Source of the DNA: Halorubrum aethiopicum
Lineage (GTDB): Archaea; Halobacteriota; Halobacteria; Halobacteriales; Haloferacaceae
Length of the DNA: 64,000 bases
Reading direction: 5' to 3'
Assembly (NCBI RefSeq): GCF_001542905.1
Contig: NZ_LOAJ01000001.1
Coordinates: forward strand, 2,170,001 to 2,234,000
Shown here: in pieces, positions 6,661 through 49,950 of the stretch
How the letters are laid out: every line of letters starts with the position of its first letter
How positions within the stretch are numbered: the stretch's first letter is position 1
Notes under the pieces: model-generated
What the model was told of the DNA's origin: nothing
What the model saw: the letters and a program-made list of their open reading frames with translations, nothing else
Databases searched by the model: none
Program-made: the position numbers and the translations under genes

Positions 6661-8133
6661 TCAGGGCGCGACGACGTCGACGACGGTCTCGTCGTCCACG
6701 ACGACGTTGTACGCGCCCTCGTCGTCGTTCCAGAGCACGAGCCCGTTCTCGACGAAGACGACCGCGCCGTAGTCGGCCCCCCGGAGCCCGTCGTTGAGGA
6801 CCGTCTCGCGCGTGCAGACGAGGTAGTGGTCGATACGCTGGGAGCCGTCGCCGACGCGGTACACCGCGTTCTCGCCGTCGCTCAGGTCGTGGCTGAGCTT
6901 CACCGCGAGGAGGTTCACGCGGTCGGTAACGTGCTCCTCCGAGTCGGCCATCCGCGCGCAGCGGTCGGCGCTCGCGCGGGCGTCGACCCGCCGTTCACCG
7001 TCGGTCCGCAGGATCGAGTAGGCGAACTGGACGTCGACGTTGTGGAACTCGCCGGGCTCGTCGGTCGCCTCGCGGGCGGCCGCCTCGTCGAGCCGGCGCT
7101 GGAACGGCGGCACCGCGAGGTCGGCCCGGACGTCGAAGGACCACCCGCGGTCGCTCGGGGACGCGTCGGGCCAGAGCCGGAGTTCGGGCGCGTACACCTC
7201 GACCCCGCTCTCGGGAGTCGCCACCGCGCGCTCGGCCTCGCGGAGCCCGATCGCCGTCTCGCGGTCCGCCGGCGCGAGCGCGACGAGGCTCCCGTCGGCC
7301 GCGAGCGCGTCGGTGGCGGCCTCGAGGACGGCGACCGGATCCTCGAGTTCGGAGAGGACGTTTCCGAAGACCACCAGATCGAAGGGCTCCGCGAGCGGAT
7401 CCGACGGATCGGACGGATCGGAACGGTCGGACTGGCTGGACGAGTCGTCGAGGCCGAACAGCGCCTCGGCGGTCGTCCGGTGGACCGTCGACCGGAAGTT
7501 CCGATCGGTCTCCTCGAGCAGCCGGTCGAGGACGTCGGCGGCGGCGCTGGGCTCGACGGCGTGGTACTCCACGACCGCGTCCTCGGGGAGGTAGTCGTGG
7601 AGGCCGAGCGCCGGACCGCCGACGCCCGCGCCGACGTCGAGGACGCGGAGCGTCCGGTCGAGCAGGCCGTTCTCGGCGAGGTCGTCGAGGACGTAACCGA
7701 TCGCCGCGTAGTAGCCGGGGAGGTGATAGATCGCGTAGCCGAGCGCGGCGATCCGGTCGTACTCGACGTCGTTGCCGTAGAGGTAGTCGGCCTTGAGTCG
7801 GCGGATCGTCTCTCTGAGCTCGTCGCCGGAGTCGCCGACGTGCCAGTTCGCGCCGAACTCCGCGACGAGGAGGTCCTCTAAGGCGAACGCGTACGCCTCG
7901 GGCAACGCCTCCGGAGCCCACCCCGGCGGGCGGACCGGATCGTCGTCGACGGGGACGAAGCTGCCGTCCTCGCGCTCGCGGAGCCGGAGGTCGAACGCCT
8001 CCTCGCGGAGCGTCTCGCGGACGACGGCGGGGTGTGGCGTCCCCTCGATGTACTCCGATATCTCCTCGGGGTCGATGGGGCGGACCTGGCGCAGGTAGTT
8101 GGCGGTGTCGCGGACCGCCGCTCTGTCGATCAT
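6661..8133 (-). CDS. Rsm22-like class I methyltransferase (ribosomal small-subunit family)
   Basis: A 490-residue protein. A helical N-terminal region (1-150) precedes a Rossmann-type SAM-binding domain with motif I LDVGAGVGGPAL at about residues 170-181 and an acidic motif II strand (YHAVEPS). After it come a region with Cys/His residues and a beta-rich C-terminus. This resembles the Rsm22 family of small ribosomal subunit-associated methyltransferase-like proteins, some of which bind Fe-S. The annotated start is the ATG at 8133, 4 bases after the stop of the upstream TyrA-like gene. An in-frame start at 8172 would overlap that gene by 35 bases and is less likely. The two genes probably share a transcript. 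Confidence 0.75.
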   Translation of the reverse strand: MIDRAAVRDTANYLRQVRPIDPEEISEYIEGTPHPAVVRETLREEAFDLRLREREDGSFVPVDDDPVRPPGWAPEALPEAYAFALEDLLVAEFGANWHVGDSGDELRETIRRLKADYLYGNDVEYDRIAALGYAIYHLPGYYAAIGYVLDDLAENGLLDRTLRVLDVGAGVGGPALGLHDYLPEDAVVEYHAVEPSAAADVLDRLLEETDRNFRSTVHRTTAEALFGLDDSSSQSDRSDPSDPSDPLAEPFDLVVFGNVLSELEDPVAVLEAATDALAADGSLVALAPADRETAIGLREAERAVATPESGVEVYAPELRLWPDASPSDRGWSFDVRADLAVPPFQRRLDEAAAREATDEPGEFHNVDVQFAYSILRTDGERRVDARASADRCARMADSEEHVTDRVNLLAVKLSHDLSDGENAVYRVGDGSQRIDHYLVCTRETVLNDGLRGADYGAVVFVENGLVLWNDDEGAYNVVVDDETVVDVVAP

Positions 8134-14994: not shown

Positions 14995-15315
14995 CGAAGC
15001 AACGAGCGATCGCCGGAGCGGTGGCGCGCCGGTGAGTGCCGCGGAGCGGCACGAACCGCCCGCGAGGGACGCCACGAGCGCTTGAAAAGCGCGAGTGGCG
15101 AGGCTGGGGAGGCGTGAGGTGCGGGGCGGTACGGTTGGGTGGGACTCAAAGGGGCAGTCGCGAGGGCGACGGCGGCCGCAGTAAGCAGCGTGGCGCTACG
15201 CGCCACGGGCAGCCGGCGGCGGAGCCGCCGGCGACACCGCAGGAGCGAACGAAGTGAGTGACGAGGAGCACAGCAAGGCCCCCGAGCCGTCGCGACTGGG
15301 GCTTTGGAGATGTTC
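14995..15315 (+). ncRNA. Dispersed structured element, copy A (candidate ncRNA)
   Basis: This shares conserved blocks with copies at 37460 and 49602: GTGGCGCGCC (15021-15030), CGCGAGGGACGC, GGCTGGGGAGGCGTGAGG, ACTCAAAGGGGCAG and ACTGGGGCTTTGGA. Between the blocks are hairpins. Stem 1 is GTGCCGC/GCGGCAC (15036-15052, loop GGA). Stem 2 (15071-15099) is GCCAC, then GA, then GCGCTT with loop GAA and the exact complements, giving a GA/GA internal loop. A long-range helix pairs AGTCGCGA (15156-15163) with TCGCGACT (15290-15297). Extra GC hairpins lie at 15188-15233. Similarity to copy B continues past the core to about 15385. Short open frames inside it differ between copies and are not genes. Strand follows the order of blocks; transcription is inferred, not seen. 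Confidence 0.6.
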
Positions 15316-15488
15316 ATCGTCCCAGCAACGATCCCGTTCTCATCACCCCGATCTCTACTGAAAGACCCGTCCTACAAGCCCTCGAGTTCTACCGAATAAC
15401 CCATCAAACCGATACGAGAAACGCGCATTCTCACGTGTGTCCCGGCTCGCTCGCGGAGTGCTTACCGGTCCGACGCGTCCCCTCGCGT
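15316..15488. other. Gap with downstream extension of element copy A
   Basis: No gene is visible. Bases 15323-15385 share short matches (AGCAACG, CATCA.CCCGATC, ACCCG, AAGC.CT.TCGAG) with 37752-37816 after copy B, so the repeated unit may extend into this gap. The remainder holds no feature I can support. Confidence 0.5.
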
Positions 15489-37373: not shown

Positions 37374-37914
37374 GCCGGCCGAATACCGAGAATAGGATCG
37401 GAGACGCCGTCGAGAGCTTTCGAGGGCGATATGTTTGTCACCCCCGTGATCGGTACAGACGAAGCAACGAGTGATTGCGGTGGCGCGCCTGCGAGCGCCC
37501 GGCAGGGCGCGAGCAGCACGCGAGGGACGCGACGACCGAAGCGGAGCGGAGGGAGTCGCGAGGCTGGGGAGGCGTGAGGTACGGGACGGTTGCGGTGGGG
37601 GCGGGATTCAAAGGGGCAGTCGCGAGGACGAAGCACGGCGCAGTAAGGACCGCAAGGAGTGAGCGGAGCGAACGACTGAGGACCGCAGCAAGCCGCGCGA
37701 GTTCTCGCGACTGGGGCTTTGGAGGTGTTCTCCGTGATCGTGGTCATCCACAAGCAACGTCCACATTTTCATCAGCCCGATCACTCACGAAACACCCGAT
37801 CTATAAGCACTATCGAGTGACCAACCGATCCGGACGGAAACGCCGACCGGAGAGCCGGGCGAGTGGGGGCCTCCCGTCGCGGGAGTTTATCACATCCGAG
37901 CGACAGTCGTAGCC
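37374..37914. other. Gap holding element copy B and its extension
   Basis: No gene is visible. The first 85 bases precede element copy B (37460-37730). Bases 37752-37816 match the extension after copy A. The last 60 bases before 37915 contain a GTTTATCACATCC stretch about 25 bases upstream, a good box A for the trans-sulfuration gene. Confidence 0.6.
37460..37730 (+). ncRNA. Dispersed structured element, copy B (candidate ncRNA)
   Basis: Same block order as copies A and C: CGAAGCAACGAG, GTGGCGCGCC (37480-37489), CGCGAGGGACGC, GGCTGGGGAGGCGTGAGG, ATTCAAAGGGGCAG, ACTGGGGCTTTGGA. Stem 1 is GCGCCC/GGGCGC (37495-37510). Stem 2 (37529-37559) has GCGAC/GTCGC outside, a GA/GA internal loop, CC/GG, and a GC hairpin inside. 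A hairpin at 37659-37673 again has GA/GA between GT/AC and GC/GC. The long-range helix AGTCGCGA (37618-37625) pairs with TCGCGACT (37705-37712). Strand is assigned by block order. No expression data. Confidence 0.6.
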
Positions 37915-49537: not shown

Positions 49538-49950
49538 TTATTCTCTTTCGGCGGCGGACTATTTCTGTCTGTGATCGAGGGTGTTCCTTTGCTATCGCGG
49601 TGAACACGTCCAAAGCCCCAGCCGCGACGACTCGATACGCTCGCTGCGCTCTTCGGTCGCTCACTTCGTTCGCTCCCTGCGGTGCTTGCGTCGCGCGTCT
49701 TCGTCCTCGCGGCTGCCCCTTTGAGTCCCATCCCGCACAGCACCGCAACCGCACCTCACGCCTCCCCAGCCTCGCGGCTCGCGGTTTCACCGCTCGCCGC
49801 GTCCCTCGCGGGCGGTTCGCGCCCTCCGGGCGCTCACCGGCGCGCCACAGCGCGAACTACCAGCTCTTCTCTCGGTGGTTCAGTCCATCCGGATCCGGCA
49901 GCCTCGGACGCGAGCCGTAGGTTTACCTGCGGCGGCCGGGAGGCGGTGAC
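49538..49950. other. Gap holding element copy C
   Basis: No gene is visible. The gap contains element copy C (49602-49860). Bases 49910-49926 (CCGTAGGTTTACC) include a box A about 30 bases before the peptidase ATG at 49951. Confidence 0.6.
49602..49860 (-). ncRNA. Dispersed structured element, copy C (candidate ncRNA)
   Basis: On the minus strand the order matches A and B: GTGGCGCGCC (49848-49839), CGCGAGGGACGC, GGCTGGGGAGGCGTGAGG, ACTCAAAGGGGCAG and GCTGGGGCTTTGGA. Stem 1 is GCGCCC/GGGCGC (49819-49833). Stem 2 (49774-49800) is GCGGC, GA, GCGGT, loop GAA, ACCGC, GA, GCCGC. The long-range helix reads AGCCGCGA/TCGCGGCT, where both bases of one pair differ from copies A and B, a compensatory change. 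It lacks the CGAAGCAACGAG upstream block. The orientation is opposite to that of A and B. Confidence 0.6.

Follow-up and report, generated by a model that had tools for sequence, protein, structure and literature searches.

Do three similar intergenic segments in a 64,000-nt stretch of the Halorubrum aethiopicum genome (the window; contig NZ_LOAJ01000001.1, positions 2,170,001 to 2,234,000) represent a family of structured RNAs, or some other kind of repeat with a conserved fold? The original prediction, made from the sequence alone, had proposed that copies A, B and C share five linear blocks, that the stems linking these blocks differ in sequence but still pair, and that this is what selection on RNA (or single-stranded DNA) structure produces. 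We first confirmed that this observation is correct. All five blocks are present in the three copies, the outer pairs of stem 2 read GCCAC/GTGGC in A, GCGAC/GTCGC in B and GCGGC/GCCGC in C, the inner pairs also differ as described, and the long-range helix reads AGTCGCGA/TCGCGACT in A and B but AGCCGCGA/TCGCGGCT in C. The resemblance is far beyond chance, since BLAST with copy A gave 68 matches in the genome, with E values of 1e-166 for itself and 1e-94 for the next copy. In support of this, a covariance model of the core (R1, see below) scored the three copies at E 4e-10 to 2e-8, while the next hit in the window had an E value of 0.08. Moreover, the minimum free energy of copy A (14995-15345) was -183.6 kcal/mol, compared to a mean of -163.0 for shuffled sequences (z = -3.8). 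Two corrections were necessary, however: the repeat is longer than initially proposed, as deduced from an empty-site comparison at copy B, and the genome contains not three but 114 copies.

Next, we aligned the copies to establish the anatomy of the element. The core, of about 100 nt (~107 nt in the covariance model), opens with GGTGGCGCGyGC, which starts hairpin P1, and continues with the block GAGGGA, hairpin P2 and the 20-nt block GAGGyTGGGGAGGyGTGAGG. A G/T-rich spacer follows and then, in many copies, a long P3 domain that runs from GACTCAAAGGGGCAG to CTGGGGCTTTGGA, and GTTCACCGCG. P1, and P2 in many copies, contain a tandem G·A internal loop, and the hairpin loops are mostly of 3 nt. The tips of P2 often read GCGAAGC (51 of 170 distinct P2 sequences; for example, in locus L053, 6809-6915, minus strand), an unusually stable DNA mini-hairpin. 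Some copies carry extra double-hairpin cassettes inside their stems. Since stem lengths differ by amounts that are not multiples of three, the element is not coding. Note that in some Haloparvum and Halorussus loci (L051 at 7115-7330, plus strand, L141 and L089) the core is followed by another inverted-repeat element (CCCTATCGGCGC...GCGCCGATATGTCGCTGAG within GGCCGGTCGCG...), present in several copies, which could be a separate repeat family.

Table. Position of the copies and of their parts in the 64,000-nt window.
Position	Strand	Feature	Basis
15020-15308	+	Copy A, span containing the five linear blocks	sequence
15020-15119	+	Copy A core: P1 hairpin, GAGGGA block, P2 hairpin, GAGGCTGGGGAGGCGTGAGG block	R1 search, E 1.7e-8
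15023-15063	+	Copy A P1 hairpin with tandem G·A internal loop (GAG/CGA) and 3-nt loop	sequence, folds, covariation
15062-15069	+	Invariant GCGAGGGA between P1 and P2	GAGGGA 97-100% conserved in 103 sequences
15070-15100	+	Copy A P2 hairpin	folds, covariation
15100-15119	+	Invariant unpaired block GAGGCTGGGGAGGCGTGAGG	most positions 99-100% conserved
15120-15142	+	G/T-rich low-complexity spacer, variable between copies	
15143-15308	+	Copy A P3 domain, GACTCAAAGGGGCAG ... CTGGGGCTTTGGA, closed by CAGTCGCGA/TCGCGACTG (15155-15163 with 15290-15298); absent from some copies elsewhere	
15186-15237	+	Double-hairpin cassette inserted in P3 of copy A, absent from B and C	
15312-15394	+	3' flank shared with other copies of this genome (GTTCAyCGyCCAGCAACGATC...)	flank alignment; the match in L231 (a stretch of sister genome G011) ends at about 15394
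37379-37831 (approximate)	+	Copy B, whole insert including 5' and 3' flanks	empty sites in two sister species
37479-37722	+	Copy B, span containing the five linear blocks	sequence
37479-37579	+	Copy B core	R1 search, E 4.2e-10
37617-37713	+	Copy B P3 helix domain (CAGTCGCGA ... TCGCGACTG)	
49849-~49620	-	Copy C, span containing the five linear blocks	sequence
49754-49849	-	Copy C core	R1 search, E 1.7e-9
49602-49860	-	Copy C as originally delimited; P3 helix AGCCGCGA/TCGCGGCT	

To test whether the fold is conserved, we built R1 from ten equal-length copies, because initial MAFFT alignments misaligned the stems, and used it to align 103 copies from 99 loci. All 30 core pairs showed changes on both sides, 93.9% of the cells paired, and the covariation score was 0.436, compared to 0.113 for shuffled alignments and at most 0.046 when the partners were slid. 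This alignment was fitted to the structure, but the ten-sequence alignment, which was made without it, gave 12 of 30 pairs and 0 of 500 shuffles. The P3 helix was 94.7% paired against 72% after shuffling. The unpaired positions were the most conserved: GAGGGA was 97-100% conserved and the 20-nt block 98-100%, apart from two C/T positions (0.90 and 0.74), while the tandem G·A was conserved at 95-99% and the bulged C at 96%. Mismatches in the stems were G·T in 40 cases and A·C in 12 (p = 1e-4), which points to the plus strand as the one that folds. Note that stems and sequences are related by descent, so these counts are not independent events. As regards known families, no Rfam family matched the window at the gathering score, and the best hit at relaxed thresholds, on the analysed stretch L005, had an E value of 0.25.

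How did this covariation arise? When orthologous sites were compared between species, flanks at roughly 70-97% identity often surrounded elements whose P1, P2 or P3 hairpins were entirely different, while blocks and joints were kept. Point-by-point compensation is therefore not the main visible process; modules are exchanged, most simply by gene conversion among the many copies. Thus, the proposal that mutation on both sides is what selection on structure produces is too simple. Selection on a folded strand is nonetheless still required, because palindrome repair would remove the conserved G·A mismatches and the bulge, and because of the G·T over A·C bias.

We then analysed the distribution of the family. 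R1 found 114 copies in this genome, all of them on the 3.05-Mb main contig (C1), at random spacing. None was found on the 280 kb of contigs C2 and C3, where 9.6 would be expected (probability about 4e-5 if uniform). Five sister genomes carried 124, 128, 139, 147 and at least 150 copies, with at most 150 candidates scored per genome. BLAST with copy A gave matches in 39 of 39 genomes of the genus, identified by exact-pattern hits in named records as Halorubrum, with further copies in Haloparvum, Halorussus, Halosimplex and Halobellus. A wider search with a covariance model (R2), in which the copy numbers per genome are lower bounds, found the core in 129 of 391 genomes and 35 of 86 sampled genera of the class, including 46 of 46 genomes of the genus. 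In a phylum-wide sample, 13 of 247 genomes had a match, all of them in this order. By contrast, no viral contig contained the exact core pattern, no phage record matched, and just one plasmid record matched, weakly. These genome-wide statements rest on the searches and on the stretches examined around copies.

The copies are intergenic: of 219 scored with a simple codon-model gene caller, just one overlapped a predicted gene. Their neighbours were convergent in 45% of the cases (99 of 218; background 23%) and divergent in 12% (background 24%), while between tandem genes the orientation was random (40 sense versus 52 antisense, p = 0.25). No neighbour gene was recurrent, and the neighbours look like ordinary host genes. 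The site of copy B is empty in two sister species, which implies the approximate insert given in the Table, and a wider comparison gave about a dozen empty sites and some thirty occupied orthologous sites. In G014, another of the genomes compared, about 6.5 kb of other sequence (L228, 735-7240) occupies the site of copy B. In G011, one of the sister genomes, the gene upstream of copy A lies next to the gene downstream of copy B (L229, C5:8000-10500; L231, C3:35000-37500), while the segment between them is on another contig, suggesting a rearrangement with breakpoints at the elements, although an assembly error is not excluded.

We also searched for the ends of the element and for a mobiliser. 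In other species, a TTATAA box sits about 20 nt before GGCGCG, in roughly half of the copies, and, in 74 instances among 97 copies, 10-19 nt after the 3' CACCGC. In the genome studied here the TTTATAA/TTATAAA box is almost absent (1 of 59). A haloarchaeal TATA box is expected roughly 25 nt before the start site, which would put the start inside P1, so the 5' box is a poor promoter for a folded RNA, and the two-sided arrangement looks more like an end motif. In loci L060, L066 and L069 the 3' end, downstream of the P3 domain (TTATAA ... CTGGGGCTTTGGAGGTGTTCACCGC), is repeated in tandem with a period of about 58 nt. A closing helix between the 5' GCGGTG and the 3' CACCGC was rejected, since these apparent inverted ends do not covary (0.70 against 0.71 shuffled). 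No target-site duplication was detected, although the empty sites are diverged and the exact ends could not be fixed from them, and no parent transposon was identified. A search for Y1 transposases (PF01797) gave no match in this genome, and the four TnpB matches lie on other contigs or at C1 positions away from any copy.

Taken together, the original interpretation as a structured RNA family is partly supported: the fold and its conservation are confirmed, but that it works as RNA is an inference. We propose, with moderate confidence, that the three copies belong to a family of non-autonomous, non-coding, chromosome-resident dispersed repeats of about 250-450 nt, conserved across Halobacteria and strongly amplified in Halorubrum. 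What our analysis demonstrates is the conserved fold (P1, GAGGGA, P2, the 20-nt block, the spacer and an optional P3 domain), the intergenic placement, the gain or loss at individual sites and the replacement of whole hairpin modules at orthologous sites. The remainder is inferred from these data: that the selected form is the folded plus strand, more likely RNA than single-stranded DNA; that an unidentified trans-acting protein recognises it through the invariant purine-rich blocks and the tandem G·A pairs; and that copies multiply by rare insertion using that factor and are homogenised and reshuffled by ectopic gene conversion between conserved blocks, so that stems would change as cassettes while the fold is kept. 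Against this proposal, neither a mobiliser nor a target-site duplication was found in the searches described above, the loops are mostly of 3 nt rather than RNA-type tetraloops, and G·T pairs are just about 1% of the stem pairs, which fits DNA as well.

Among the alternatives, the best surviving one, although unlikely, is that of the original prediction, in which each copy would be an independent transcription unit producing a 260-320 nt RNA that binds a dedicated protein. The covarying fold, the G·T bias on the plus strand, the upstream TTATAA box of other species and the presence in every genome of the genus examined are in its favour. However, the position of this box, the similar box at the 3' end and its near absence from the present genome, as well as the empty sites and the cassette swaps, argue against it, and more than 100 copies in convergent gene gaps is unusual for RNA genes. 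Slightly less likely is that this is a REPIN- or MITE-like element whose hairpins fold as single-stranded DNA for transposition by a trans-acting transposase. The near-perfect palindromic stems with 3-nt loops (256 of them GNA), the GCGAAGC tips, the AT boxes at both ends and the more than 100 intergenic, chromosome-resident copies, with long persistence as reported for REPINs (PMC8049555), support this possibility. Against it, this genome has no Y1 transposase match, no target-site duplication was detected, the ends do not covary and the cores are far longer than REPs. A cis-acting 3'-UTR element, such as a terminator or an mRNA processing site, would explain the enrichment between convergent genes and the highly stable hairpins, but is very doubtful given the random orientation within tandem gene pairs and unpaired blocks that are much too conserved for a terminator. 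Finally, that quasi-palindrome repair or gene conversion keeps the hairpins perfect without selection on a fold, as the whole-hairpin replacements and the scarcity of stem mismatches could suggest, is very improbable, because palindrome repair would erase the tandem G·A mismatches and the bulged C, which persist while the stems around them vary, and because the G·T bias is strand-specific.

A more speculative possibility, compatible with the data but unlikely on present evidence, is a class-wide haloarchaeal RNA-based element, in which each copy would make a folded RNA whose two invariant blocks are read by a dedicated protein that both maintains the population of over 100 chromosomal copies and uses it for a host function, with the hairpins continually renewed by exchange between copies. 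Whatever its nature, every sampled Halorubrum genome carries many copies of one elaborate folded element (114 to at least 150 in the six genomes counted), whose core fold is conserved across the class and which is apparently undescribed, being absent from Rfam and from the papers we searched, which were open-licence papers only. The family offers a large natural alignment to study how hairpins evolve by module exchange, and a test of whether archaea keep long-lived repeat populations like the bacterial REPINs. It also warns that paired changes between paralogous copies are not by themselves proof of RNA function.

How does this family compare with known systems? Large structured RNAs tied to mobile elements, such as the IscB/TnpB omega RNA and HEARO, are also hundreds of nucleotides long, structured and multi-copy in some genomes; here, no Rfam family matched even at relaxed thresholds, no TnpB match lies near any copy and no neighbour protein recurs. 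The PATEs and small mobile repeats of Haloquadratum (PMC3119063) are likewise haloarchaeal, transposase-free, palindrome-bearing mobile repeats present in large numbers. PATE ends relate to IS605-type transposons, and in our case the evidence on this point is limited to the absence of copies at the TnpB positions. SMR-A elements are about 110 bp, have terminal inverted repeats and target other mobile elements, and in the present family the interior fold, not only the ends, is conserved. As occurs with the REP/REPIN-RAYT systems (PMC3116915, PMC8049555), the family forms a large intragenomic population of palindromic, extragenic, chromosomal repeats, but REPs are 20-40 bp (PMC3733652) and no Y1/RAYT gene was found in this genome. 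Since the defining mobiliser or end features were either not found or not resolved, we do not classify the family as REPIN, PATE or MITE. Functionally, we consider it closest to BOX or REP-type repeat populations. As occurs with the BOX elements of Streptococcus pneumoniae (PMC3049150), it is modular, dispersed, intergenic, predicted to fold strongly, over-represented between convergent genes and non-autonomous, a resemblance of kind for which we claim no homology; the present family is archaeal, shares no recognised sequence with BOX, and is distinguished by its long invariant purine-rich blocks, its tandem G·A motif, its class-wide distribution and the heavy exchange of its stem modules.
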